Shown: positions 3,512 to 25,630 of the stretch, one piece after another | Position numbering within the stretch: the stretch's first letter is position 1 | How the letters are laid out: each line of letters begins with the position of its first letter | Made by a program: the position numbers and the translations under genes | IMG/VR virus record: IMGVR_UViG_3300005336_000652 | Coordinates: 1-25,630 of that record | DNA length: 25,630 nt | From: a virus | Direction: 5' to 3' (one strand) | The notes under the pieces: model-generated | Seen by the model: the letters and a program-made list of their open reading frames with translations, nothing else | Told to the model about the DNA's origin: nothing | Database searches by the model: none

Positions 3512-3627
3512 TTGACATGTTATTTCTTCTATGAAATAATACAGCAAGTTACGGACATACCGCCAAGAAGGGCGGTTTTTTTGTGACAAAAAGAGGATTT
3601 ACCTCAGCGCAAGCTGGGGTTTTTTTT
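3512..3627 (+). promoter_or_regulatory. Major capsid promoter with two tandem hairpin-U-tract elements
   Basis: TTGACA at 3512-3517 and AATAAT at 3535-3540 are 17 nt apart, the only clear -35/-10 pair among the hairpin-leader promoters. A 7-bp inverted repeat (TTATTTC 3520-3526, GAAATAA 3533-3539) covers the spacer and -10 region and could be an operator. The leader begins ACGGACATACCGCC at 3551. Hairpin 1 is ACCGCC 3559-3564 with GGCGGT 3571-3576, followed by T3576-3582 and GTGACAAAAA. Hairpin 2 is ACCTCAGC 3601-3608, GCAA loop, GCTGGGGT 3613-3620 (one G-T pair), followed by T3620-3627 directly abutting the ATG at 3628. This is the only leader with two such elements. Confidence 0.65.
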
Positions 3628-4764
3628 ATGAAAAAATTTCTTATAGTTCTTCCAAAATATGTAGACGGTATACCCGTTCCTTCTCGTGTCGATGTACTTG
3701 GTAATCGAGATCTTTACAACAAAGTCGTTGACCAGATTTTAAATTTCCCTTCTCTGTATTCCCGATGGATTTCTCAAGGTGAAGAGTTTGAGGGAAAAAC
3801 AGAAGATGTGACCTATGACATTGCAGCAGATACACAAGGACAATTCTTCACGTCTCTTGAGACATTGAATTCTTCAGCAGTTTCTACCGCAGTGACAGCA
3901 TCCTTTGCACACACTGCATACACACAACCAGTGGTTTCTATCATGTTAGAAAGTTTTGCTAATGTTGGCTCACTTGGCATTATTAATTTAGATACCTATA
4001 AATATGAAAAAGCAGCAGCAACTGCATTAACAACGCTTGGGAGTGCGATTTATGGCGATGGCACAGCCAATCAACCACTTGGTCTTAAAGCAATTATTGA
4101 TGACGGGACAAATGTCGCAACTATCGGCGGATTGTCACGATCAACCTATACTTCTCTTGAATCAGTCTTAACAGCCTATTCATCAGGTAAATTGACGCTT
4201 GGTACCATGGCAGCGCAATATGACTCAGGCTTTGGTCCTGGTCTGGCTGAAGAATCTCCAAATGTCGGCTTTACCACGACTTCCATTTTCTCTGACTACG
4301 AACAGCTCTTGACACCATTTGTCAGACAGTCTTATCGAGATGTCGGGTATGACAAGATGCGTACACGAGATAGATACCCACAACGAAATCAAGGAGAATT
4401 ACGATCAGCTGCTGGATTTAATGCGCTTTCCTACCGAGATACCTATATTATTCGTGATTTTTATGCAACTCAACAAATGCTCTGGTTTATTGATGAAAAA
4501 TATGTCACATGGAAGGGACGAGCGGAAGTGCCTGAAGAATACAAAGATGTGTTAGAAAAAGTAGACTTTGGCACAATGGAAGCATATGAGGGACGAGGCG
4601 CTGAAGCTGTCGAAACACCATCAGAATGGAATGGGTGGTTCTATCAGAAACCATTAACCATCCCAGATCAAGCAGGACGAATTGCACGATTCTATTGTAT
4701 CGGTCAGACCATTCCATTGTCTTTCAGATCACATTCAAAAGGTACAGGAATTACAGGAGTATAA
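3628..4764 (+). CDS. Major capsid protein, HK97 fold
   Basis: A 378-residue protein that would form the capsid shell. The central segment, IYGDGTANQPLGLKAI near residues 132-147 followed by GGLSRSTY near residue 159, is the characteristic GDGT..P.GL...GG..R pattern of HK97-type phage capsid proteins, and the length is typical. The N-terminus (MKKFLIVLPKYV) matches the shared tag seen on several other virion proteins in this window. An in-frame GTG at 3583 would add 15 residues, but translation would run through the second leader hairpin, and ATG 3628 lines up with the tag, so it is preferred. Arginine is encoded by CGA in 12 of 18 cases, a codon that most bacteria read poorly and that the tRNA at 24957 would serve. 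Confidence 0.88.
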   Translation: MKKFLIVLPKYVDGIPVPSRVDVLGNRDLYNKVVDQILNFPSLYSRWISQGEEFEGKTEDVTYDIAADTQGQFFTSLETLNSSAVSTAVTASFAHTAYTQPVVSIMLESFANVGSLGIINLDTYKYEKAAATALTTLGSAIYGDGTANQPLGLKAIIDDGTNVATIGGLSRSTYTSLESVLTAYSSGKLTLGTMAAQYDSGFGPGLAEESPNVGFTTTSIFSDYEQLLTPFVRQSYRDVGYDKMRTRDRYPQRNQGELRSAAGFNALSYRDTYIIRDFYATQQMLWFIDEKYVTWKGRAEVPEEYKDVLEKVDFGTMEAYEGRGAEAVETPSEWNGWFYQKPLTIPDQAGRIARFYCIGQTIPLSFRSHSKGTGITGV

Positions 4765-6282: not shown

Positions 6283-6990
6283 ATGATAGGCGTAAATATA
6301 GGCAAACTCTTCAATCCCACACAACAAGGCAATATTGCTTCTGGTACTATTCCATCTTCATTATTAACAGGTATAGTCTCATACTATAAGTTTGATGAGA
6401 ACACGGGCTCATCCGTCGGGGATGCGGCAGGGGCAAATACGGGTACCTGGAACGGCACACTTGGGTCACAATGGACCACTGGGAAAATTAATAGTGGTGG
6501 TAATTTCGATGGTACAGATAATTCTATCAGTTTAGGTAGTGATACATCTTTAGCAATCTCTATATTCACCTTTGCTTGCTGGATTAATATACCATCGTTT
6601 ACAGGAACAGGTGCAATTATTTGTAGCAATATCGGTGGCAATGGAGGTTATGAATTTAGATATAATACTTCTTCTAAAATAGAATTGTTAAAGAGTAATG
6701 TTATTAGTATAGGAGCATCTACGGGGACAATTAGCATTAATACATGGACTCATGTTGCCATTACTTATGATGCTTCAGGTAATTATATTTTTTATATTAA
6801 TGGTTCTTCATCTGGATCGGGCACGAATCTGCAAAGTTTTAGTTTATCGAATTATTACATAGGGAGACAGAACGTAAATGAATGGTTCAACGGAAAACTT
6901 GACGAGTTTGGTATATGGAGTAGAGTCTTGACCTCTTCAGAAGTCACAACGCTCTATAATAGCGGCGCAGGAAAGCAATATCCTTTTTAA
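6283..6990 (+). CDS. LamG / concanavalin A-like lectin-fold virion protein
   Basis: A 235-residue protein. After a short N-terminal segment (MIGVNIGKLFNPTQ, a weak relative of the shared tag) it consists of one laminin-G/concanavalin-like jelly roll from about residue 29 to the end: YYKFDENTG and the GNFDGTDNSISLG strand near the start, FACWINI near residue 92, WTHVAITYDASGNYIFYING near 155-175, and the terminal DEFGIWSRVLTSSEVTTLYNSG that closes such domains. These folds usually bind carbohydrate or protein. It ends the capsid operon, so it is probably displayed on the capsid or tail and used to adhere to glycans. It starts ATG 6283, directly after the previous stop, without a Shine-Dalgarno. 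Confidence 0.75.
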   Translation: MIGVNIGKLFNPTQQGNIASGTIPSSLLTGIVSYYKFDENTGSSVGDAAGANTGTWNGTLGSQWTTGKINSGGNFDGTDNSISLGSDTSLAISIFTFACWINIPSFTGTGAIICSNIGGNGGYEFRYNTSSKIELLKSNVISIGASTGTISINTWTHVAITYDASGNYIFYINGSSSGSGTNLQSFSLSNYYIGRQNVNEWFNGKLDEFGIWSRVLTSSEVTTLYNSGAGKQYPF

Positions 6991-9556: not shown

Positions 9557-9602
9557 TATAATAGTTTTAACGGACATACCGCCAGCAATGGCGGTTTTTT
9601 TT
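9557..9602 (+). promoter_or_regulatory. Hairpin-leader promoter of the GH5 operon
   Basis: Extended -10 TGTGCTATAAT (TATAAT 9557-9562), 7 nt, then ACGGACATACCGCC from 9570. The stem is ACCGCC 9578-9583 with GGCGGT 9590-9595 around a 6-nt loop, followed by eight T (9595-9602) that abut the ATG at 9603. The expected transcription start falls on the A of ACGGAC. There is no Shine-Dalgarno. Directly after the ATG comes GAAAAA, so the GUGG-A5 portion of other leaders is replaced by AUGG-A5 that includes the start codon. Confidence 0.65.
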
Positions 9603-12422
9603 ATGGAAAAATTCAACACATTATTACCTCGATACGTTTCAGCCGTTCGTGATGCTAATAGGGTTCCCGGAATGGTGGGAGCAGATACCATATCAGGAGG
9701 TGCAGAAGGCGTCACTGCGCTCTCATTGGCAGGAGGTTCAGTTATCGCGCCAACAACAGCAATTGTTGATTCTGCTGGTAATCAAATCAGTACATTTGGG
9801 ACAAATCTTACTGAGATTGGCGGCACAGACGTTCCCTCTCTCGGATTAACAAAAGCACTTCCCACAGAAATTGTCGATCAAAATGGAAAGCAAATGAGCT
9901 CCCAACCTGGGGCATTAGATGTGAATGTTGCCTCTATAAGTCCATTTGTGACGCATAATGGCCCGCAATTTAGCTATAAAGGAAAACCGTTTAAGTTTGT
10001 CGGGTTTAATTATTATCCCTTAATTATTAGTCAATCACTCAGTACAACACAAAAGTTAATGGATGATGCCAAAAAATTAGGCATCACGGTACTTCGTACG
10101 TGGTGTTTTGATCCACCTGGAGGGTTTCGATCTCTTTTTTATCCTTTAGGAACAAATTTAGTTGCTAATTCATCATTTGAGACAGGAGATTTCACAAATT
10201 GGACAACAGCATCTAGTGGAGGATTTAATTGGGCAATAGACAATACGATTTCTCAAGATGGAACCTACTCAGCGAAATTAGATGCTACAACAGGTTTTAC
10301 ACAACTAGGACAACAAATAACGGTTACTACAAATACTGACTATATTTTTAACTTTTGGCATAAAACAACAAATAGAGGTGGTTTTAATTCGGTCGTATTC
10401 GTAGGAACATCTCTGGGAAGTAATAATGTGAAAGATGGAGGATTTATTCCCGATACTGCAAATACTTGGGAAATGGAGCAAGTACAATTTAATTCTGGTT
10501 CTAATACAAGTGTGTGGATTACTTTTCAAAATTTTGGGGGCTCAGTTTTGGAATATATTGATAACGTCAATGTTAGCATTAAATCTGGCACTCCCTACCT
10601 TGGATATAACGAAGGTGCATTAGTTAATATTGATACTGTTTTAAGTGAAGCGCGAAAACGAGATATTAAAATAATTCTTGATTTAGGGGATGGAAATTTT
10701 GATAACTATAATACGCCTGGGCAATATGTCAGTTGGGTCAATACGATTTATGGCGATGGTCTGCCAACTGATCGAAATAATGTTGACTATGCTTTTTTTA
10801 CCTCGACGCACTGTAAAAATCTCTATAAAGATTTTATCAAGACACTCACGCAACGAGTGAATACGATTGATGGCATTCAATATAGAGATCATCCGGCTAT
10901 ATTCTCTTGGGAATTAGGTAATGAGTTACGAACAAATCATTTTGATGATGCAAGTGTCGTGAATACCCTTCAGGCGCCAAACCTAATCGCGCTCTCGCTT
11001 CCTGGCGGGTGGGCTGATGAAATGTCGACCTATATCAAGTCACTTGATCCAAATCATATGGTCAATTTTGGTGACTGCGCGCATACCTGGCAATATGCCC
11101 AAAGTACAGGAGGCTTACAAGATGTCGTATCAAATGGGACGTTTGAAGGTGTTGATTATAATATCATTTCAGCACTCCCGAATATTGATTTTGCGGATTA
11201 TCATACCTATCCAGATCAGAGTGATAATGTCCATCTACAATATTATGGCGCCCGATTTGGCTTTACAAGTGGGATTTCAGGGGATGGATACCGAGCACAA
11301 TTAAAAGATTTTGTTGATGTGGCACATGCGAATAATAAACCTGCGATTATTGGCGAAGTAGGATTTATTTCAGGCACAACTGGAGACACTACGTTTTATC
11401 CACTGTATAATCGCTATCAAGCTTTTAAAGCAGTCTTTACCGACTTTTTAGATATTCCACAAGGTGATGGTGCGATTATTTGGCATGCTGTCCCAGCTGC
11501 AACAAGTAGCTCTTATGATGTGGCACTTGAAGCAACTGGTGGACAAAATGTCACCGATAATAGTAATGACACGACAATTGTCAATTTAGTATCTGCATAT
11601 AATACGGCGTTTCAAAACGATGTTGTCCCTGCCCAATCAGTCACTGCCATTATTAAGACAAATGGCGATACTGTTACAAAAGTATTTACACAAAACGATG
11701 CAACCGTTGCCGTCCAACTTTCTGATACGTGGACAGGGACAGTGCAATTTGAATCAACCATTGACGGCATTACATGGTATGCACAATCGCTTTTTGATAA
11801 TACTGGTGCTTCTGTGACAAGTGCAACGGCAGTCGGATTATTCAAAGGGACAATAGCCGGGATAAGTAAATTTAGAGTACGAGCTGCTGCATCAATAACA
11901 GGTAGTTTGACAGTCAATATCAAACCTTCTCCAGAAGTGAATACAGGCATCGTATCTCTTAGTTCTTTACCGGCTTTACCAAGTGGCACGAATATAATCG
12001 GGAAAGTAGGCATTGATCAAACAACAATAGGTACAACAAATGCAGTAACGCCTGTTCCTGCTTCTAACTCAGGATGGTCATTTTTCTATGTCGCAGGCGG
12101 TATCTCAAGTACAAAACAGCAAATCAAATCTTCTGCCGGAACATTTGGTGGGTATGTCATGCTATATAACCCAAATACTGCAGTTACCTTTATTCAGGTC
12201 TTCAATAAAGCATCTGCCAGTGTCACCGTCGGCAGTACTGCACCTGATTTTGTTATTCCACTTCCTGGCATCGCTTCAGCTTCGGCGACTGGCTCTGCTG
12301 CCAATGCTGAAGTTGTTATGGGCGTTGCAATGTCAACTGGCATCACAATAGCAGCAACGACAACAGAAACTGGATCAAGTGCCCCTGCAAATAATATTTT
12401 CGCAACATTTTTATATAAGTAA
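9603..12422 (+). CDS. Virion-associated GH5 glycoside hydrolase with inserted carbohydrate-binding domain
   Basis: A 939-residue virion enzyme. Residues 1-12 (MEKFNTLLPRYV) are the shared tag. Residues about 113-180 start a (beta/alpha)8 barrel of the GH5 mannanase-like type (FSYKGKPFKFVGFNYYPL, then TVLRTWCFD). A CBM-like jelly roll (NSSFETGDFTNW, ending YIDNVNVSI; about 183-327) interrupts it, and the barrel resumes. SWELGNELRTN places the acid/base at Glu441, IIGEVGF the nucleophile at Glu585, and IIWH near 627 fits the final strand. The C-terminal 280 residues hold phage-type beta domains (WTGTVQFESTIDGITW; IKSSAGTFGGYVMLYNPN) probably attached to the particle. It would cleave a beta-linked glycan, perhaps mannan-like, on the host surface; substrate is inferred. 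ATG 9603 is preferred to in-frame ATG 9588, which lies in the hairpin. Confidence 0.8.
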   Translation: MEKFNTLLPRYVSAVRDANRVPGMVGADTISGGAEGVTALSLAGGSVIAPTTAIVDSAGNQISTFGTNLTEIGGTDVPSLGLTKALPTEIVDQNGKQMSSQPGALDVNVASISPFVTHNGPQFSYKGKPFKFVGFNYYPLIISQSLSTTQKLMDDAKKLGITVLRTWCFDPPGGFRSLFYPLGTNLVANSSFETGDFTNWTTASSGGFNWAIDNTISQDGTYSAKLDATTGFTQLGQQITVTTNTDYIFNFWHKTTNRGGFNSVVFVGTSLGSNNVKDGGFIPDTANTWEMEQVQFNSGSNTSVWITFQNFGGSVLEYIDNVNVSIKSGTPYLGYNEGALVNIDTVLSEARKRDIKIILDLGDGNFDNYNTPGQYVSWVNTIYGDGLPTDRNNVDYAFFTSTHCKNLYKDFIKTLTQRVNTIDGIQYRDHPAIFSWELGNELRTNHFDDASVVNTLQAPNLIALSLPGGWADEMSTYIKSLDPNHMVNFGDCAHTWQYAQSTGGLQDVVSNGTFEGVDYNIISALPNIDFADYHTYPDQSDNVHLQYYGARFGFTSGISGDGYRAQLKDFVDVAHANNKPAIIGEVGFISGTTGDTTFYPLYNRYQAFKAVFTDFLDIPQGDGAIIWHAVPAATSSSYDVALEATGGQNVTDNSNDTTIVNLVSAYNTAFQNDVVPAQSVTAIIKTNGDTVTKVFTQNDATVAVQLSDTWTGTVQFESTIDGITWYAQSLFDNTGASVTSATAVGLFKGTIAGISKFRVRAAASITGSLTVNIKPSPEVNTGIVSLSSLPALPSGTNIIGKVGIDQTTIGTTNAVTPVPASNSGWSFFYVAGGISSTKQQIKSSAGTFGGYVMLYNPNTAVTFIQVFNKASASVTVGSTAPDFVIPLPGIASASATGSAANAEVVMGVAMSTGITIAATTTETGSSAPANNIFATFLYK

Positions 12423-12914: not shown

Positions 12915-14909
12915 ATGGCACGTCTTTGGTCATCGGGATTTGAGCAAAACAGCCTTTCGACTGAATTTTGGGCGAATACGGGGTCGCCGATTATTCAAAC
13001 GGGCATTGTGAGAAGTGGTACATACGCTGCTAAATACGCGGTTACTGGTGGTTTTAATTCTTATCATCAGATGCGGTTTAATGGAGTTTCCACACCGACC
13101 AATAAGAAAGCGTATATTCGTGCATACGCATATACAACCAGCTATCCTACTGTCATCAATAACTCATTGCTCAAGATTTTTAGTTATAACGGATCAAACC
13201 AATTACTTGCCGTCAGGGTAAAAACGGATGGGACACTCATTCTCTTTGATCTTGTAAACAGTGCGCAGGTAGGGAGTGCATCGGTCGCTCTTCCGCTCTC
13301 CTCCTGGAATCGGATAGAGCTAAGTCTAGACTTTACGACAATCACGGCTACCGTCGTAACCGTCTATCTCAATGGTACTCAATTCGCAACAGGAACGGTT
13401 AATTGGTCGAATGCAGCAAGCTTTGAGCCGGGATTCCTACAGTGGGGGATGGAGCTTGCTTCCTCAAGTACATGGGCGGTGTATTTTGATGATTTAGCAG
13501 TAAACGACAACGGAGGATTGTCACAGAATTCTCTTCCCGGTGAAGGGAGCATAATACATCTCAAACCAAATGCTGCAGGTGATGTTAATACTTTCGCTAC
13601 TCAAACAGGTGGTACCGCAGGATCATCTAATAACTTCACTCGTGTAGATGAAGTTACACCAGATGATGCAACCTCTTTCAATGGTTCTAGTACGCTCAAT
13701 CAACAAGATCTATTCAATGTATCCGATAGTGGAATTGGTGCGTCCGACACAGTAAATGTTGTATCCGTCGGGGCACGCCTACGAAATAATGTGGTTGATG
13801 CGACAACGGCAATTAAGCTCGAAATAGAAAAGACCACAGGTGGGACGATAGCGCAATCAGCAGCCATAATCGCAAATACGACCACGTGGGCTAATAATAA
13901 TCCCTCTTTTAGCAACAATAACTATGCGCTTTCTACCTATCAAGATCCTGACGGCGCCGCCTGGACGCAGTCCACGCTGGACACCATGCAGATCGGCTAC
14001 AAGCTCACCACGGGCGGGACCAATCGCATTGATGTTTCGTCGGTATGGGCGCTGGTCGATTATACGCCTGCTCCTATTGGTATTGGTGTTATTCGACCTA
14101 CTGCTATTAAGCCTCGTCTACCTGTGCTCAATAGAAATAGTCGATTTAGAAATGGGCTTGTCGCAGCGCTTGCACTGAGTGAACAAGGAGGGGGAGTAAC
14201 CACAAACTATAAAGATCTCGCCTCTAGTCTCGTCGGTGTTTCTTCTGGAATTATTACTCCATCTACTGATATCTATGGAGCTATGGCAAAATTTAATGGA
14301 GAAGCAACAGGGGGAGGCATTATTCAATATCTTACAGCTAAAAACCAACAGGATCAAACGAAATTCTCCTGGTTATTCTTATATAGTCGACACGCAACAG
14401 GCGGTGGGAATACATCACCAAAATACTTTATGTTAGTAGATTCGGGATCAGGAACAGCAGGGAAATATTTATCTGAAGATTCGGGAACTGCGATGCAGAT
14501 CGATATTCTATGGTCAGGAGGCGACGCATTGTGGGATTATGCATTCCCTGCTGTTGATCAAGTAGTTATTGATATCATTACCTATGATGGCAGTAGTACG
14601 AGTAATAATCCAAGTGTGTATCGAAATGGACTACCATTAAGTGTGACAACTGTAGCAGCTCCTTTAGGAACTATTCAAACAGGAGATGATACAACACTTG
14701 CTCTCGGGAATCATCCCGCACAATCACGAACAATGAACGGAAAAATAGGTATGTTTTGCATGTGGAACCGTATACTTTCCTCTTCTGAAATTGTCACGCT
14801 TTCAGCTAATCCATGGAAACTTTTTAAAGAACCTGGATTTTATCAGTCATTAAATAGTATTTCAGGAACGCACTATTACTCGTTTCTTCCTACGTTGGGA
14901 ATAGGATAG
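12915..14909 (+). CDS. Two-domain LamG-type adhesin protein
   Basis: A 664-residue protein with at least three parts. Residues 1-200 form a LamG-like domain (FEQNSLSTEFWANTG; WNRIELSLDF near 127; AVYFDDLAVNDNG near 190). Residues 215-390 form a different beta module ending in AAWTQSTLDTMQIG and WALVDYTPAP, a string common in metagenomic surface proteins. Residues 415-645 form a second LamG domain ending GKIGMFCMWNRILSSSEIVTLSANPWKLF. It probably binds surface glycans beside the GH5 enzyme. A 78-bp patch at 13950-14027 is much more GC-rich than the rest of the gene, suggesting a recently acquired segment. It starts ATG 12915 3 nt after the previous stop, without a Shine-Dalgarno. Confidence 0.7.
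   Translation: MARLWSSGFEQNSLSTEFWANTGSPIIQTGIVRSGTYAAKYAVTGGFNSYHQMRFNGVSTPTNKKAYIRAYAYTTSYPTVINNSLLKIFSYNGSNQLLAVRVKTDGTLILFDLVNSAQVGSASVALPLSSWNRIELSLDFTTITATVVTVYLNGTQFATGTVNWSNAASFEPGFLQWGMELASSSTWAVYFDDLAVNDNGGLSQNSLPGEGSIIHLKPNAAGDVNTFATQTGGTAGSSNNFTRVDEVTPDDATSFNGSSTLNQQDLFNVSDSGIGASDTVNVVSVGARLRNNVVDATTAIKLEIEKTTGGTIAQSAAIIANTTTWANNNPSFSNNNYALSTYQDPDGAAWTQSTLDTMQIGYKLTTGGTNRIDVSSVWALVDYTPAPIGIGVIRPTAIKPRLPVLNRNSRFRNGLVAALALSEQGGGVTTNYKDLASSLVGVSSGIITPSTDIYGAMAKFNGEATGGGIIQYLTAKNQQDQTKFSWLFLYSRHATGGGNTSPKYFMLVDSGSGTAGKYLSEDSGTAMQIDILWSGGDALWDYAFPAVDQVVIDIITYDGSSTSNNPSVYRNGLPLSVTTVAAPLGTIQTGDDTTLALGNHPAQSRTMNGKIGMFCMWNRILSSSEIVTLSANPWKLFKEPGFYQSLNSISGTHYYSFLPTLGIG
13950..14027 (+). other. 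GC-rich mosaic patch inside the double LamG gene
   Basis: 53 of 78 bases are G or C, whereas the flanking parts of the gene are AT-rich. The codons (CTG, CTC, GGC, CAG, ACC, CGC) are not those favoured elsewhere in the window. The patch encodes the AAWTQSTLDTMQIG segment of the middle domain. It suggests recombination with a higher-GC relative. Confidence 0.55.
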
Positions 14910-14915
14910 GTATGC

Positions 14916-14971
14916 TATAATAATCATAACGGACATACCGCGCGAAAGGCGCGGTTTTTTTGTGGAAAAAT
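14916..14971 (+). promoter_or_regulatory. Hairpin-leader promoter of the adaptor-tail operon
   Basis: TATGCTATAAT (TATAAT 14916-14921), 7 nt, then ACGGACATACCGCGC from 14929. The stem is ACCGCGC 14937-14943 with GCGCGGT 14949-14955 around GAAAG, followed by seven T (14955-14961), GTGGAAAAA and ATG 14972. Both arms differ from the ACCGCC/GGCGGT of the other copies but still pair perfectly, a compensatory change that supports an RNA stem. No Shine-Dalgarno. Confidence 0.65.
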
Positions 14972-15964
14972 ATGAGACTTTCATATCAAGATTTACGCTA
15001 CGCTCATTACCGCGCTATTAACTTAGCTAATTCTGATGGTACTCCAATGACTGATACCAATATAGACAATGACTTTAATCAACATTTAGGGCAACGCTAT
15101 CAATTAATGTTAGCGAAAATGAATAATTACAAGACTGTCAAGCCTTATTCTATTTCTACCGCAAGTAATACGCAGATTTATGGCATGCCACCTGGACTTG
15201 TAACAATTGAAGGTGGCTATATTACTGTTGGGTCTGTTAATTATCCACTCCAGCCAATCAATTCACGCTTCAATATCGAGCAATTAAACGCACTCCAAAT
15301 TCAAGCTTCAGCATTGCCGCAGTTTTATTTTGTGGAACAGGATACCTTTCAAATCTGGCCCATCCCACAAGCTGTCTATACGGGAAAGATTTATTATCAT
15401 TTCAGAGATCGAAACCTATCAGTCAATGATTATACAAATGGAACGATTAGCTTAACTAATGGATCAAATATCGTTACAGGGACAAGTACAACGTTTACCA
15501 CTGCAATGGTAGGTCGGTGGCTGACTGTGACTGATACAACAATACCAGGTCAGGGTTATTGGTATCGCATCATAGGACAATCAAGCGCAACAAGTATTAC
15601 ACTTGGCGGACTAGATGGAATAACACCTATAAACTGGCAAAATGCAAGTGTATCAGGTGCAACATATCGGATAGGAGAAACACCTGAACTACCTGAAGAA
15701 ATGCATGAGATTTTAGCTGCGGGCACTGCGTGTGATTATTATATGTTTATGCGAAAAGATGCAACAGCTGCAACCTATTATTCAAACCTCTTCTTTACGG
15801 GTGATCCAGCTAATCCTTCACGAGACTTTGAAGATAGAAAGATTATTGGCGGACTTATTGGTGGCATCAATTCCTATCGAGATCGTGATGATCGAACAGT
15901 TATTAGACGACGACCAAAATTAAATCCGTTGCAATATAAAGTTTTCGCAACATCCCTGAGCTGA
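14972..15964 (+). CDS. Head-tail adaptor (connector) protein (predicted)
   Basis: A 330-residue protein. The N-terminal helical part (SYQDLRYAHYRAINLANSDG, then NIDNDFNQHLGQRYQLMLAK) followed by the strand pattern YSISTASNTQIYGMPPGLVTIEGGYITVG and PLQPINSRFNIEQLNAL is the layout of podovirus adaptor proteins that bind under the portal. Residues 150-235 form an inserted beta domain (TNGTISLTNGSNIVTGTSTTF; WYRIIGQSSATSITLGG), also common in this group. The helical end (LPEEMHEILAAGTACDYYMFM) and a basic tail follow. It precedes the large propeller protein, as an adaptor should. ATG 14972 is used; an in-frame TTG at 14960 lies in the leader U-tract. Confidence 0.65.
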   Translation: MRLSYQDLRYAHYRAINLANSDGTPMTDTNIDNDFNQHLGQRYQLMLAKMNNYKTVKPYSISTASNTQIYGMPPGLVTIEGGYITVGSVNYPLQPINSRFNIEQLNALQIQASALPQFYFVEQDTFQIWPIPQAVYTGKIYYHFRDRNLSVNDYTNGTISLTNGSNIVTGTSTTFTTAMVGRWLTVTDTTIPGQGYWYRIIGQSSATSITLGGLDGITPINWQNASVSGATYRIGETPELPEEMHEILAAGTACDYYMFMRKDATAATYYSNLFFTGDPANPSRDFEDRKIIGGLIGGINSYRDRDDRTVIRRRPKLNPLQYKVFATSLS

Positions 15965-15969
15965 TATGT

Positions 15970-18900
15970 ATGGCAAAAAAAGACGAATCATTAGTTTTTT
16001 CACAAAAGCGCTTTCTCGGATTATCTGATTACCCGAAAGAAGGGTCAAATGGACAAATACCGAATTTATTTTATTGGGGAAGAGCAGTGAATTTTCGTGA
16101 TGATCCCCAATCCTTAACGCTGTTACCAGCCTCGCTTAAAAAGTCTGGTTCTGTCGTGACGGATTTAATTAAATGGGGGGAACGGGTACCCGTGACATTA
16201 ACATCATTTTTTTATGGCGATACAGGTAATTTATATCAACGGACTAAGGGGGGAACATGGTCAAATATCCGCACTGTTTCCAACTCACATGGTAATGGAT
16301 TAGCCTATTTCACAGGTGATGATTATTTATATTACCCAACAGATAACGCAATAGGCAGATATGGCCCTACTCAAAACGCACCCACATTTTCTGATAATTT
16401 CTTAAAAGCTCAAGGAGGAGTTCCGACAAATACAAATTCAGTTGCTATGGCTTCCTCCTCAAGCGAATATGTCTCAGCGGCAGATTCTGTCTCTTTATCA
16501 ATTACGGGTGATTTAACACTTGAAACATATTTCAAATGTAATTCACTCCCAACCGTAGGAAATTCAATGACGCTTCTTGGCAAATGGGATGAATCAGGAG
16601 CTACACGGTCATATAAATTAGATTTATTTGGAGTCTCTGGATATTTCGGTGATGGATCAGATGGATCACTGACCATTTCTTCAAATACAACAGAATCACC
16701 GATTGACTCAGCATGTACAGGTACATCGGGAACACAATCTTTAGCAGCAACAAACGCTTCATTCGCAGTTGGACAAATAATTCTAATTCATCAATCACAA
16801 GGAACAAATGCTGGACAATGGGAAAGAAATACTATCCAGGGGTATAGTGCGGGTACGATAACATTAAATACCCCACTTATCGGAACATATACAACAGGTG
16901 CGCAGGTGAGAGTTTTAAAACGATACACCAATGTCACGATTAATTCTGGAGTAACCTACACAGCGAAAGCATGGAATGGGACAACTGGTGGAATATTAGC
17001 CTTCTTGGCAAATGGAACAGTAACGGTTACAGGTAGTATTTCAGCAAATGGAACGGATGCCTCTTTAAATAATACTCATGGAGGAACTGGAACCTTTACA
17101 TTCGCGGGAGCTACAGGATGTGGTTTTTCTGGAGGAGAAAGCGTTAATAGCAACAATATTGCTTCATTACAAGCGTATCAAGGAGAAAGCGCGTCTGGTA
17201 TAGGAACACAAAACACGTCGTCAAACGGAACGGCAGGAGGAGGGGGATTCCGAAATGGAGGGAACGCGAATGCTTCGGGAGGAGCGGGGGGAAATGGAAC
17301 AAGTGGAGCAAATGGTACCGGAGATCCACAAGGTGGAAGCTGTACCCCTGGATCAGGAGGCAACACAGGAGGATCAGCAGATTTAACTAATATAATTATG
17401 GGAGGCGGAGGAGGCGGAGAAATAAATCAAGCTGACCATACAACCGCCAACGCGGCATCGGGTGCAGGTATTATTCTTATATCTGGGGCTACTATTACTG
17501 TAACAGGATCTATCACCGCAAATGGAGGAAATGCATATCAGGCTGAATCATCAGGGGGTGCAGGAGCAGGAGGGTCAATCCTTATGAAAGCGCAAATAGC
17601 AACATTTGGTTCAGGACTTATCACCGCAAATGGAGGAGGGACAATCGGAGGATATGCTGGTGGACACTGGGGTGCTCCCGCGGGAGATGGAAGAATAGTG
17701 CTTGATTATCTGACTTCTTATACTGGAACGACGACACCTACTCTCAATGCCATTCAGGATTCAACGCTCGTCACAACAACAACCATACAAGCACGTCTCG
17801 GTATTTCAAATAATGGCACAGCATTTGAATATTTAACCCAAAATCTCTCTAGCTTAACAACAAGCGTATGGAATCGCTTATCTGTCTCATGGGAAGCTGC
17901 AACTGCAACAGCAACATTTTATTTAAATGCTTTTCTTTTAGGTACTTCAACGGGAACCAAAACTGCAATTTCTGATAATACCTCTCTTTTGTATATCGGC
18001 GCAAATAAAGGCGCGTCAGTTGTGCAAAATTTCTTTGACGGCTTACAGGATGATATACGTATCTGGTCAAATGTCCAGACTGCTTCACAAATATTCACCA
18101 ATAATCAATTACAGATCAACCCTGACTCCTCAGGATTACAAGCCTATTATAAAATGAATGGCGATTATACAGATGCGACGGGAAATTCCAATACAGGAAC
18201 AAATCACTCAACGACGTTCTCAACTGATGTCCCTTTTCCCGCAGCCACTACCAGACTGGATATTGATACACAAAACACCAATACAGGCGATACATATACA
18301 CTACTTACCTCTATTTCAGAAGGCGCATCGGATATGATGGATTTCACACCAACGCTTGATCCACAAGCGTCAATGGCGTTTTATGTCAATGCAGCTGGGA
18401 CTGGGAATTGGACACTCACGATTCATAATAAGCAAAACGTGGTAATTGCAACGCAAACGATTGCTGCTGCGGGAGTCCCATCAAGCGGGGCAATTGAATT
18501 TGTTTTCGCAACACCCTGGAGAATACTCGCTGGACAGACCTACCACGCACATCTCACTGTTTCAACGGGTACATCAAGTATTGTGACGGGAACAGCAAAT
18601 AGCATGGCATCGGCTGAGTATACGACTTATTATGGATTTTTAGTAACAGAAACACAATTTCATCCGGCAATTCAATTTACCTATCAACCATTAGGAGGGG
18701 TTTTAACTGGGGCTATTATTATCGGCAACGAACGCTATTTGGCAGTCTGGGATGGAGCAAACTACTCGGCAAATTACATCGCATTTCCACCCGCATGGCA
18801 TGTACGATGTTTCGGGTTCTGGCGTGAATATTTAGCAATCGGTATGTGGCGAGGTGGTGGAATTTCCGACTTTTCACAAGGTCGAATCTATTTCTGGGAT

Positions 18901-19707
18901 GGTGTATCACCAACCTTTAACTTCTTTATAGATATACCTGAAGGGCAAATAAACGCACTCTTTGGAGCTGATACCGATCTATATATTATTGCTGGTTATA
19001 GGGGCTATTTACTTGACTATCAAGGGACATTTATGCAGGATACTGGGAATGGACGAGGAATAAAGTTAAAACGTACACCAAAAATTGCCCCCACTGACAC
19101 GATAGAGGTGTATCCTGGTGCATTTACCATGTGGCGATCCTTACTGCATATCGGGTATGGTGCAAATATGTCCTCATCAACCATTCAACAAGGTGTGTAT
19201 TCACATGGTACATTTAATCAGTTTTATCCTGACACTATGTCGTATGATTATGTGATCTCAACAGGAAATACCAATTCGAGTGTAACGATTGGATGTGTCT
19301 ATCCGCTTGGAGATACGTTAATAGTCGGCTGGCGAGATGGTATTGCAACAGGAGCAGATGAAATCAACTTTTCAAATCCGCCTGCTTCCTCAGGGGAGAT
19401 ACAAGTATTAATTCAGGATGATAATGCGATTTGGAAACAGAAAAATAGTTTTCAAGTCCGAGCTGATTTTCTTGCTTTACGAAGCGGTGAAAGTATTGAT
19501 TGTGAAATTGCAATTGATCGAGGTGCATTTACTCTATCCTCTCCTGATGCAAAGGTTGGAGATGTCTTTACGAAATTAAATATAGCGGGCGGACGTGGAT
19601 ATGAATATCAAATCGGTGCGCACTTATATGCCACTGGCACAACGTCACCCACATTAAAAGGAATCTCATTACGGAAAGATCCACTTCCTGAAGAAGATCA
19701 ATTTTAA
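15970..19707 (+). CDS. Tail propeller (nozzle-like) protein with nested LamG and Gly-rich adhesin inserts
   Basis: A 1245-residue protein. Residues 1-150 (NLFYWGRAVNFRDDPQSLTL; FYGDTGNLYQRTKGGTW; GDDYLYYPTDNAIGRYGP) and about 910-1245 (NERYLAVWDGANY; REYLAIGMWRGG; GRIYFWDGVSP; TDLYIIAGYRGYLLDYQG) are repeated beta blades typical of a podovirus tail nozzle. A LamG domain is inserted between them, its first half at about 155-222 (SLSITGDLTLETYF) and its second half at about 600-714 (WNRLSVSWEAATATATFYLN; DDIRIWSNVQTASQIF). A Gly/Asn/Thr-rich domain (about 222-598) splits this LamG, with GGGGGG near residue 477 and three strands of the form GSI(S/T)ANG. Another beta sandwich (740-905) follows. 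The inserts would project from the tail and bind host receptors. It begins 5 nt after the adaptor gene. Confidence 0.7.
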   Translation: MAKKDESLVFSQKRFLGLSDYPKEGSNGQIPNLFYWGRAVNFRDDPQSLTLLPASLKKSGSVVTDLIKWGERVPVTLTSFFYGDTGNLYQRTKGGTWSNIRTVSNSHGNGLAYFTGDDYLYYPTDNAIGRYGPTQNAPTFSDNFLKAQGGVPTNTNSVAMASSSSEYVSAADSVSLSITGDLTLETYFKCNSLPTVGNSMTLLGKWDESGATRSYKLDLFGVSGYFGDGSDGSLTISSNTTESPIDSACTGTSGTQSLAATNASFAVGQIILIHQSQGTNAGQWERNTIQGYSAGTITLNTPLIGTYTTGAQVRVLKRYTNVTINSGVTYTAKAWNGTTGGILAFLANGTVTVTGSISANGTDASLNNTHGGTGTFTFAGATGCGFSGGESVNSNNIASLQAYQGESASGIGTQNTSSNGTAGGGGFRNGGNANASGGAGGNGTSGANGTGDPQGGSCTPGSGGNTGGSADLTNIIMGGGGGGEINQADHTTANAASGAGIILISGATITVTGSITANGGNAYQAESSGGAGAGGSILMKAQIATFGSGLITANGGGTIGGYAGGHWGAPAGDGRIVLDYLTSYTGTTTPTLNAIQDSTLVTTTTIQARLGISNNGTAFEYLTQNLSSLTTSVWNRLSVSWEAATATATFYLNAFLLGTSTGTKTAISDNTSLLYIGANKGASVVQNFFDGLQDDIRIWSNVQTASQIFTNNQLQINPDSSGLQAYYKMNGDYTDATGNSNTGTNHSTTFSTDVPFPAATTRLDIDTQNTNTGDTYTLLTSISEGASDMMDFTPTLDPQASMAFYVNAAGTGNWTLTIHNKQNVVIATQTIAAAGVPSSGAIEFVFATPWRILAGQTYHAHLTVSTGTSSIVTGTANSMASAEYTTYYGFLVTETQFHPAIQFTYQPLGGVLTGAIIIGNERYLAVWDGANYSANYIAFPPAWHVRCFGFWREYLAIGMWRGGGISDFSQGRIYFWDGVSPTFNFFIDIPEGQINALFGADTDLYIIAGYRGYLLDYQGTFMQDTGNGRGIKLKRTPKIAPTDTIEVYPGAFTMWRSLLHIGYGANMSSSTIQQGVYSHGTFNQFYPDTMSYDYVISTGNTNSSVTIGCVYPLGDTLIVGWRDGIATGADEINFSNPPASSGEIQVLIQDDNAIWKQKNSFQVRADFLALRSGESIDCEIAIDRGAFTLSSPDAKVGDVFTKLNIAGGRGYEYQIGAHLYATGTTSPTLKGISLRKDPLPEEDQF

Positions 19708-20059: not shown

Positions 20060-20117
20060 TATAATATGGTTAACGGACATACCGCCTCGCAAGGGCGGTT
20101 TTTTTGTGGGGAAAAAT
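20060..20117 (+). promoter_or_regulatory. Hairpin-leader promoter of the ejection-protein operon
   Basis: TGTGCTATAAT (TATAAT 20060-20065), 7 nt, then ACGGACATACCGCC from 20073. The stem is ACCGCC 20081-20086 with GGCGGT 20094-20099, 7-nt loop TCGCAAG, seven T (20099-20105), GTGGGGAAAAA, then ATG 20118. An in-frame GTG at 20106 would add MGKN, but the equivalent GTG is out of frame at 14962 and in the portal leader, so the ATG is the true start. Confidence 0.65.
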
Positions 20118-20990
20118 ATGAAATTAACTAAATTATATGCACGGTTTGATCAGGCAGGGGATATAAGTACTGCTAATAACTCTATTAATGCAGCGAAAAG
20201 TTCAGGAGAAAATGCAATTAATAGCTTTGATCCAACACAAACCGCAGGTGCACAAATTAATACCACGAATCAAAATTTTGGTACAGCGCAAAAAGAGGCA
20301 CAAGGAACAGGTGATATGTTGACTGCAGCAGTAAAAGCAAATCCGACAGTTACCTCTTTATATAATACCGCAAATAATCAATTCAATGTTCCAGCCCTGC
20401 AGACATCAGCAACGCGTTTACAAAATCAAGTAACCAATGCTGTTCCCGATGCGTATCAAGGTGCAAAAGGCTACGATATAGGCAACGCGCAAGTACAAAA
20501 TGGCATAGCGAATAAAGAGGCATATCTAGTCCCTCAAGCAAATGCTGCAACTGCAAACGCGAATACGGCAGAAGGATTAGCGTCTAATTTTGTCCAAGCA
20601 GGGCAACAGCAGAATGAACAAAATTTGATTCCTGCGACGACTGAGGCTGGTATACAAGCACAAAATATAGCAAGCCAAGAAACAGGGTGGAACACTACAA
20701 TGGCAAATCAATTTAATGCGCTTGTTGCAAAAATGCAAAGTGGCGTGCAATTGTCTTCACAAGAAATGCAGACCGCACAACAATTAGCAGCGACCGAGGA
20801 GGCATATAATCAGGCAGTTGTGAGCGCGAATGCACAAGTGAATGTGGCAAATATAGGACAAGAATATAAGCAAGTGGCTCCTAATGATACGGTATTTAAT
20901 ACAACGAATGGAAACACATGGAATCCCATAACGGGGGCGAATGTCCCCCTTACCCAAGCACTTGCCAGTAGTATGACAGGAAAGAGTTAG
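20118..20990 (+). CDS. Internal virion / ejection-like protein with shared N-terminal tag
   Basis: A 290-residue Ala/Gln/Asn/Thr-rich protein starting MKLTKLYARF, a copy of the shared tag. The rest is mainly helical and low in aromatic residues (for example TAKQ-type stretches such as AATANANTAEGLASNFVQAG near residue 150 and LSSQEMQTAQQLAATEEAYN near 211-230), a composition seen in podovirus ejection proteins stored in the capsid and released into the cell with the DNA. It is followed by a GH73 hydrolase and a larger Gln/Asn-rich protein, which fits a set of internal proteins. No specific family is recognised. Confidence 0.5.
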   Translation: MKLTKLYARFDQAGDISTANNSINAAKSSGENAINSFDPTQTAGAQINTTNQNFGTAQKEAQGTGDMLTAAVKANPTVTSLYNTANNQFNVPALQTSATRLQNQVTNAVPDAYQGAKGYDIGNAQVQNGIANKEAYLVPQANAATANANTAEGLASNFVQAGQQQNEQNLIPATTEAGIQAQNIASQETGWNTTMANQFNALVAKMQSGVQLSSQEMQTAQQLAATEEAYNQAVVSANAQVNVANIGQEYKQVAPNDTVFNTTNGNTWNPITGANVPLTQALASSMTGKS

Positions 20991-24939: not shown

Positions 24940-25049
24940 AGGAATGCAATCACCATGGGCGGCTAGTTTACTGGGTGTAAACGCTGATTCTCGAAATCAG
25001 AGATAGGAGATCGTTCCTCCTGCCGTCCACTATTGCATTCCTCTTTTTT
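24940..25049 (+). terminator. Terminator stem that encloses a tRNA-like gene
   Basis: AGGAATGCAAT 24940-24950 and ATTGCATTCCT 25032-25042 are perfect inverted repeats, followed by C and six T (25044-25049), so they form an 11-bp terminator stem. The loop is the tRNA at 24957-25029, separated by 6 nt on one side and 2 on the other. Transcript from the promoter at 24825 would end here. Confidence 0.6.
24957..25029 (+). tRNA. tRNA-Arg(UCG)-like gene
   Basis: 73 nt with all four arms. Acceptor GGGCGGC with GCCGTCC (7 pairs, one G-T) and discriminator A; D arm GTTT/AAAC with A14 and GGG in the loop; anticodon stem CTGAT/ATCAG, loop TCTCGAA, anticodon TCG; 4-nt variable loop; T stem AGGAG/CTCCT. 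It has two anomalies: C at position 33 where U is almost universal, and T loop ATCGTTC instead of TTCRANY. CCA is not encoded. The predicted CGA reader matches the codon use (12 of 18 Arg codons in the capsid gene are CGA). It may be a divergent working tRNA or a tRNA mimic. Confidence 0.6.
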
Positions 25050-25068: not shown

Positions 25069-25126
25069 TATAATACATGCAACGGACTTACCGCCTCACA
25101 AGGGCGGTTTTTTTGTGGGAAAAAAT
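25069..25126 (+). promoter_or_regulatory. Hairpin-leader promoter of the Pro/Gln-rich gene
   Basis: TGTGCTATAAT (TATAAT 25069-25074), 7 nt, then ACGGACTTACCGCC from 25082 (one base different from the other copies). The stem is ACCGCC 25090-25095 with GGCGGT 25103-25108, loop TCACAAG, seven T (25108-25114), GTGGGAAAAAA, ATG 25127. It lies directly downstream of the tRNA terminator. Confidence 0.65.
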
Positions 25127-25630
25127 ATGCAACCAAATACACCTTTAGGACAATTGTCACAAAGCATGCAAGCGGGGACACCAGAACTTTTACAACAAAC
25201 TGGTGGATCGCCAAATTTTTCACCATCTCTACAGCCTCCTTCAGCTTCACCAATGCCAGAGAAATCACCGATGTCTGGTATTCACGGAACAGCATTACAT
25301 CGAGCGCTACAACGGCGTGGATTACCTATTCCCCCCCAACTCCAACCAGGTGGAGCAAATGTACAAATTGATCCGCAAACAGGACGACAAGCATTTCCGA
25401 AAGACATTTTAAATCCTCAACCTGGTGAACCAGGTACAAATGACGCATTGCCGATTTCAGAAGTCGAGACAATCGTGAATGCACTCACCAAACACCTTGG
25501 TCATAAAGCAAAGCAGGAATCAAAAATACTCGACGCTGCCCTCTCTATGCTGCCACAACAAGATATGCAATTTGATGCTTCAGGGCGAGAAGTGTTACCA
25601 AAAGATATTCTCAATCCGCAAGGAAGTTAA
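25127..25630 (+). CDS. Pro/Gln-rich protein with duplicated PKDILNPQ motif
   Basis: A complete 167-residue protein whose stop codon is the last three bases of the window. It is Pro/Gln/Ser-rich and probably largely disordered at the start, with short helices near residues 54-64 (TALHRALQRRG) and 110-142. Two copies of the pattern Q-x-D-x(2,3)-G-R-x-x-x-PKDILNPQ lie at 80-98 and 148-165; their codons differ, so the repeat is maintained at the protein level. It might be a binding peptide for a partner. It lacks the shared KLxPRF tag although it has the same leader. No family recognised. Confidence 0.55.
   Translation: MQPNTPLGQLSQSMQAGTPELLQQTGGSPNFSPSLQPPSASPMPEKSPMSGIHGTALHRALQRRGLPIPPQLQPGGANVQIDPQTGRQAFPKDILNPQPGEPGTNDALPISEVETIVNALTKHLGHKAKQESKILDAALSMLPQQDMQFDASGREVLPKDILNPQGS

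Follow-up and report, generated by a model that had tools for sequence, protein, structure and literature searches.

The DNA analyzed here is a 25,630-nucleotide (25.6-kb) IMG/VR record of an uncultured phage with virion genes (IMGVR_UViG_3300005336_000652, positions 1–25,630), and we refer to the whole of it as ‘the window’. Megablast of the window against the phage collection gave no matches. Its portal and capsid proteins match only two entries of that collection, MG269973 and MW202566, at 25–29% identity; MG269973 is the TM7 phage DolZOral124_53_65, ‘TM7’ denoting the ultra-small Saccharibacteria. Host searches came back empty, both with the capsid profile (in 380 Patescibacteria genomes, and in genome contigs) and by way of tRNA-Arg (across 287 genomes), and the host assignment thus rests on these distant portal and capsid matches. 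A near-identical contig of 40.7 kb (G001; L027) also holds an early module and terminase genes. The early module encodes GroEL, a GroES-like protein and a GH25 lysin; the GroEL gene, accompanied by the GroES-like gene, is at L027:12568–14500, and GroEL occurs in 7/7 related contigs and in both TM7-type phages. Among the proteins scanned there was no phage RNA polymerase. Three proteins of the virion module (6283–6990, 12915–14909 and 15970–19707) have Laminin_G_3 or concanavalin-like lectin domains and are possible cell-surface binding parts. A tRNA-Arg (TCG) lies at 24957–25030, just 5' of the leader at 25082.

Six virion operons of the window begin with a recurrent leader, and a seventh leader stands in tandem at the capsid gene. 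As the first-pass annotation of this DNA had it, five copies are nearly identical: the 13-mer ACGGACATACCGC is exact at 3551, 9570, 14929 and 20073, and has one mismatch at 25082. A GC-rich hairpin, 7–8 T and then the start codon follow 3' of each copy. In four copies (9570, 14929, 20073 and 25082) TATAAT precedes ACGGAC by exactly 7 nt, again as described; the capsid copy at 3551 differs, with TTGACA-17-AATAAT and a spacing of 10 nt. The joint change of both terminator arms in the 14929 copy (ACCGCGC/GCGCGGT) is likewise confirmed. RNA fold z-scores of the leaders range from −2.4 to −4.7.

All leaders are on the + strand. That of the portal gene (296–364; fold z −4.66) has its −10, TATAAT, at 296–301, a small hairpin composed of A (AGC, 333–335), loop (ACGTA, 336–340) and A' (GCT, 341–343), terminator arms at 333–340 and 352–359, and a T-run at 359–364; the portal ATG is at 379. 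The first capsid leader (3512–3582) has a −35 at 3512–3517, a −10, AATAAT, at 3535–3540, A (CGG) at 3552–3554, loop (ACATA) at 3555–3559, A' (CCG) at 3560–3562, arms at 3559–3564 and 3571–3576, and a T-run at 3576–3582. The tandem capsid copy (3593–3627) is without a promoter of its own: A (GAGG, 3593–3596), loop (ATTTA, 3597–3601) and A' (CCTC, 3602–3605) are followed by arms at 3602–3608 and 3613–3619, a T-run at 3620–3627, and the ATG at 3628, which is probably the capsid start rather than GTG 3583. The leader of a 944-aa ORF (9557–9602) has its −10 at 9557–9562, A (CGG) at 9571–9573, loop (ACATA) at 9574–9578, A' (CCG) at 9579–9581, arms at 9578–9584 and 9589–9595, and a T-run at 9595–9602; this ORF likely starts at 9603, an ATG at 9588 being within the hairpin. 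The SU10-adaptor-like gene (leader 14916–14961) has a −10 at 14916–14921, A at 14930–14932, A' at 14938–14940, arms at 14937–14943 and 14949–14955, a T-run at 14955–14961 and an ATG at 14972. For a 290-aa virion-module gene (leader 20060–20105), the −10 is at 20060–20065, A at 20074–20076, A' at 20082–20084, the arms at 20081–20086 and 20094–20099, the T-run at 20099–20105 and the ATG at 20118. The last gene of the window (leader 25069–25114) has a −10 at 25069–25074, A at 25083–25085, loop ACTTA, A' at 25091–25093, arms at 25090–25095 and 25103–25108, a T-run at 25108–25114 and an ATG at 25127. The order promoter, hairpin, T-run, start codon given by the first-pass annotation thus stands; it had missed the second capsid copy and the position of ATG 9588 inside a hairpin.

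The hairpin with its U-run has the form of an intrinsic (Rho-independent) terminator, GC-rich and directly followed by the run, and this form recurs between promoter and start codon at the virion operons, as had been recognized. What had been overlooked is that ACGGACATACCGC is a small hairpin in itself, A (CGG), loop (ACATA) and A' (CCG), whose 3' strand also forms the terminator base: a second, competing hairpin, the leader's own candidate antiterminator. In this ‘type I’ arrangement A' doubles as the base of the terminator left arm, and the A:A' hairpin and the terminator exclude each other because both use the A' strand. In ‘type II’, seen in portal leaders within the group to which the window belongs, the left arm is instead made of A plus the loop. 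The window's portal leader, where arms AGCACGTA/TACGTGCT surround AGC-ACGTA-GCT (333–364), had been described as the same shape with another stem, which is correct as far as it goes; it is a true variant. Portal leaders L103 and L107 have AGC-ACATA-GCT in type II topology, and that of L101 has the same small hairpin, GAGC-ACATA-GCTC, in the usual topology. That the exclusivity survives a change of shared strand points to selection for exclusivity as such. The leaders thus contain what defines an attenuator, two mutually exclusive conserved RNA structures with a common strand; no ligand, uORF or factor that might tip the balance between them came to light.

Across the set the small hairpin has 3–5 bp, an A/U-rich loop of 5–6 nt and no internal loops. 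The U-run has a median of 7 and is at least 6 in 66/78 elements. The terminator region has a median of −11.3 kcal/mol and A:A' about −1.8 kcal/mol. At some nascent RNA length the A:A' hairpin has a probability above 0.5 in 78/78 elements, a set that includes two apparently spurious ones (G001 36444 and 29674). At full length its probability is near 0 in most elements; it is dominant only in short RNA.

Promoters of the window's phage group are of the extended −10 type (TGNTATAAT). In nine phage contigs (including G001, G392, G394, G396 and G400) they are bimodal with respect to the start codon: 16 have an ATG 5–8 nt downstream, the ‘leaderless’ class, and about 35 have it at 38–58 nt, the ‘leader’ class. 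The leaderless spacing puts +1 near nucleotide 7 beyond the −10, which bears out the earlier placement of +1 at the start of the conserved block. The leaderless class is also present in two Saccharibacteria chromosomes (G009 and G010; ATG 6–11 nt after the extended −10), and many phage and host genes are probably transcribed without a leader, +1 falling at the start codon or close to it. The promoters of the set share no site upstream of the −10 beyond TGN, and so give no sign of an activator site.

Searches with capsid and portal proteins gave about 100 related loci, and the leader proved common to a broad clade of uncultured phages rather than confined to the phage of the window. Relatives at 40–80% capsid identity have the same architecture in other letters. 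The 13-mer, which had been called invariant and is so in the window save for the mismatch at 25082, varies among them: its stems change compensatorily, and the loop type alone is preserved. Nearly all capsid leaders listed follow the plan (e.g. GGGT-AATTTA-ACCC, CGAG-ACACA-CTCG and GAGT-ATTTTA-ACTC, each at the terminator base), and a further variant, AGTC-ACTATA-GACT, is at the terminator base in a non-capsid operon. Genomes contain up to ten or so copies. The mapped elements lie in the packaging and virion module, and the early module is without them. Tandem leaders also occur at the capsid genes of L019 and of L062/L063. The capsid leaders of L052, L059, L061 and L077 are without a clear terminator; the small hairpin of L059 (CAGC-ATATA-GCTG) nevertheless remains, and may have a role other than competition. 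The element is absent from the TM7-type phages L020 and L021, and an element with A:A' was not found in 0.8 Mb (427 hairpins) of two genomes of Saccharibacteria, the putative host group.

The pairing of A with A' is far more frequent than expected. Among 99 sites with promoter, hairpin, T-run and ORF, picked blind to A, exact A:A' is present in 73; swapping the upstream pieces among sites gave a mean of 22 and a maximum of 32. Hairpins with a promoter and an ORF have an A:A' match in 64/122 cases, and those with neither in 53/716. Seven phage contigs contain 31 elements with promoter and ORF, compared with 0.1 in Markov-shuffled sequence. Since a MAFFT alignment of whole elements is not structure-aware, we used a structural finder and a short alignment of 23 capsid (MCP) and portal leaders, with its register set by eye. 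In this alignment 95.7% of cells are paired. Covariation in homologous leaders, to which the first-pass annotation had looked for support, is found at all three pairs (3/3 with double-sided changes), and scores 0.888; shuffling gives 0.225 (sd 0.055), and slid versions never exceed 0.183. A is Watson–Crick with A' at 22 positions where terminator strand C gives G–U and at 16 that leave C without a partner, in a set chosen for exact A:A' and hence biased toward that pairing. A is thus kept for pairing with A', and is not a mere repeat of C.

With segment D, after the U-tract, A pairs in 9 cases (3.1 expected, maximum 9), weakly above chance overall. A few individual capsid leaders (L050, L040 and L058) have a striking A:D pairing, which would enclose the terminator hairpin; pairing of this segment with A plus flank (e.g. 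TAGGTTAA/TTAACCTA) is possible in the capsid leaders of L050, L040, L058, L048, L064 and L073. The idea of an insulator, by which sequence farther upstream would mask A in transcripts that read in, was rejected (mean complementarity 9.76, and 9.55 when swapped).

Stems vary from operon to operon inside one phage—G392 has GGTC, CGGT, GAGT, AGTC and GAGC—and the loop and 5' flank do not. Identity within and between phages is 0.82 and 0.52 for the loop end, 0.77 and 0.45 for the 5' flank, and 0.29 and 0.29 for the terminator loop. In G392, UUC precedes A and UUC ends the loop in nearly all of ten elements; G400 and G004 have a UUA flank and an AAUUUA loop, and G003 has an ACACA loop. A constant loop and flank with a variable terminator loop are as expected of a phage-specific recognition site, and the small hairpin looks, judging by the sequences, like a loop for recognition carried by a stem of arbitrary sequence. 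Part of the constancy within phages could reflect leaders that were duplicated within one genome. Among small, non-structural proteins, the best conserved candidate for reading this loop is a Zn-finger (CxxC..CxxC) protein of ~100–108 aa, encoded in 7/7 contigs between GroEL and terminase (L027:14578–14901, and relatives). The ~108-aa protein has no family match and no match in the phage collection, and its AlphaFold model is of low confidence (pTM 0.44). Another gene, L027:7223–7561, was tried as Q-like and rejected: its PHROG match is weak (E 0.0033) and confined to a short zinc motif, and the families shared by at least four phages do not include it.

Each leader, in our judgment, is probably a compact transcription attenuator that gates a virion operon, with the small hairpin as antiterminator and a phage factor to hold it. 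The support is computational, and consists of the exclusive structures, the covariation and the distribution; termination, readthrough, the phage factor and late timing we infer. Host RNA polymerase would initiate at the extended −10 promoter, and the first ~15 nt of transcript would form the weak A:A' hairpin. When the right arm appears, the hairpin of the terminator (B:C plus U6–8), which is much stronger, would capture A' (type I) or A and the loop (type II), and by default the transcript would end about 40 nt from its start. Most likely, a phage-encoded RNA-binding factor would read the phage-specific loop and 5' flank and hold A:A'; the base of the terminator stem could not then close against the U-tract, and polymerase would continue past the terminator to the genes for capsid, portal, tail and packaging. 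The energies point the same way: with the terminator at about −11.3 and A:A' at about −1.8 kcal/mol, transcripts should by default terminate, and only a held A:A' should let polymerase read through. A single antitermination signal may turn on the full set of virion genes.

Hairpin competition might also act without a factor, fixing partial readthrough alone, with output per operon tuned by sequence. The early appearance of A:A' in the nascent RNA and the differences in stem among operons would fit, but the near-zero probability of A:A' at full length in most elements would leave it little effect alone, and the constancy of loop and flank within a phage would go unexplained; we consider this account unlikely. 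Alternatively, a protein like lambda Q might load on polymerase, either at the promoter or where a sigma-dependent pause falls in the A/U-rich beginning of the transcript, and cause the terminator to be ignored, A:A' being incidental or an aid to pausing. At virion operons the terminator does directly follow the promoter, and an A/T-rich block does lie at a fixed distance from the −10. Such a protein would use a DNA site at the promoter, and only TGN is common upstream of the −10, with which a low-information, phage-specific site would still be compatible; moreover, stem changes are compensatory and the same hairpin is kept in promoterless tandem copies, making this mechanism quite improbable. 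The lack of an upstream site, the plain promoters and the promoterless tandem copies are most simply accounted for by a factor that binds the nascent hairpin.

Of the three roles put forward in the first-pass annotation, antitermination fares best. A pure 5' stabilizer, or a leader whose U-tract beside AUG aids ribosome loading without a Shine–Dalgarno (SD), is less well supported, in view of the promoterless tandem copies, the SDs and the leaderless genes. Those genes do make the leader an addition that needs a reason, many U-tracts adjoin ATG, and a subset has the (weak) extra pairing of A 3' of the U-tract. Protection of the 5' end and translation do not account, however, for hairpin exclusivity in two topologies; several relatives have an SD between U-tract and ATG, and the second, promoterless copy is not at a 5' end. 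We regard this role as very improbable. Binding of a phage regulator to DNA, with the CGG-acata-CCG inverted repeat as operator, would suit a dyad that is identical at five window sites, but among relatives the letters of the dyad differ between operons of one phage (G392) with complementarity kept. Such variation disfavors a sequence-specific operator, and the chance of one is very slight indeed.

If the leaders are factor-dependent attenuators, a single RNA logic would govern the late genes of a broad clade of uncultured phages, and would provide one of few regulatory handles on viruses of hardly culturable bacteria. The switch would be a very small terminator/antiterminator, about 40 nt and promoter-proximal, each copy having undergone its own compensatory evolution, and an RNA-binding antiterminator coevolving with the loop would be predicted. 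Its small size and repetition make it testable by plain in vitro transcription. Somewhat more tentatively, and short of an even chance in our estimation, the leaders could represent a new phage antitermination system, in which a loop-specific phage RNA-binding protein opens minimal attenuators genome-wide and activates packaging and virion operons jointly; its phages would depend on host polymerase, their hosts being Saccharibacteria or other bacteria of ultra-small size.

Control of phage genes by antitermination is familiar from lambda N–boxB, lambda Q and HK022 put; boxB, for example, is a short hairpin whose loop is specific to the phage. None of these systems is known to have an RNA or DNA signal that competes with the terminator for strands. 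The hairpin of the phage leaders does, and every virion operon carries its own leader copy, within ~45 nt of the start. Recurrence at many gene starts of one phage is a property of the SAS/ESAS elements of cluster K mycobacteriophages, described as start-associated, with inverted repeats and subcluster-specific sequence, at many genes per phage (PMC3203893). In the part of that account we draw on, they have a fixed 13-bp motif, belong to non-structural genes, and are described without terminator or exclusive hairpins (PMC3203893); the phage leaders belong to virion genes and are covarying RNA. No Rfam family matches the window or six relatives at gathering score, and we found no description of such a leader in the open literature.

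In BglG/SacY/LicT systems, a protein-stabilized RAT hairpin shares leader sequence with an intrinsic terminator, so that only one of the two can form (PMC3369936). The phage leaders are built likewise, the stabilizing protein being in this case only presumed. They do not have the form of a RAT, which is larger, with conserved asymmetric internal loops; theirs is a hairpin of 3–5 bp with a loop of 5–6 nt, at virion operons, and the proteins scanned (part of the ORFs) include no Pfam match to CAT or PRD. In ANTAR systems (AmiR/NasR/EutV), small, short-loop hairpins, the last overlapping the terminator, occur in several leaders per regulon (PMC3369936), and the phage leaders resemble them in having a small hairpin over a terminator in several leaders of a regulon. 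ANTAR leaders have two hairpins, however, with A1 and G4 in the loop; the phage leaders have one per terminator, and at position 4 of the loop they have U or A, in some 5-nt loops C, and in none of 66 loops G, which sets them apart. As we analyze it, the logic is that of the RAT/LicT and ANTAR leaders, and what is new is its form: a minimal, regulon-wide phage attenuator.
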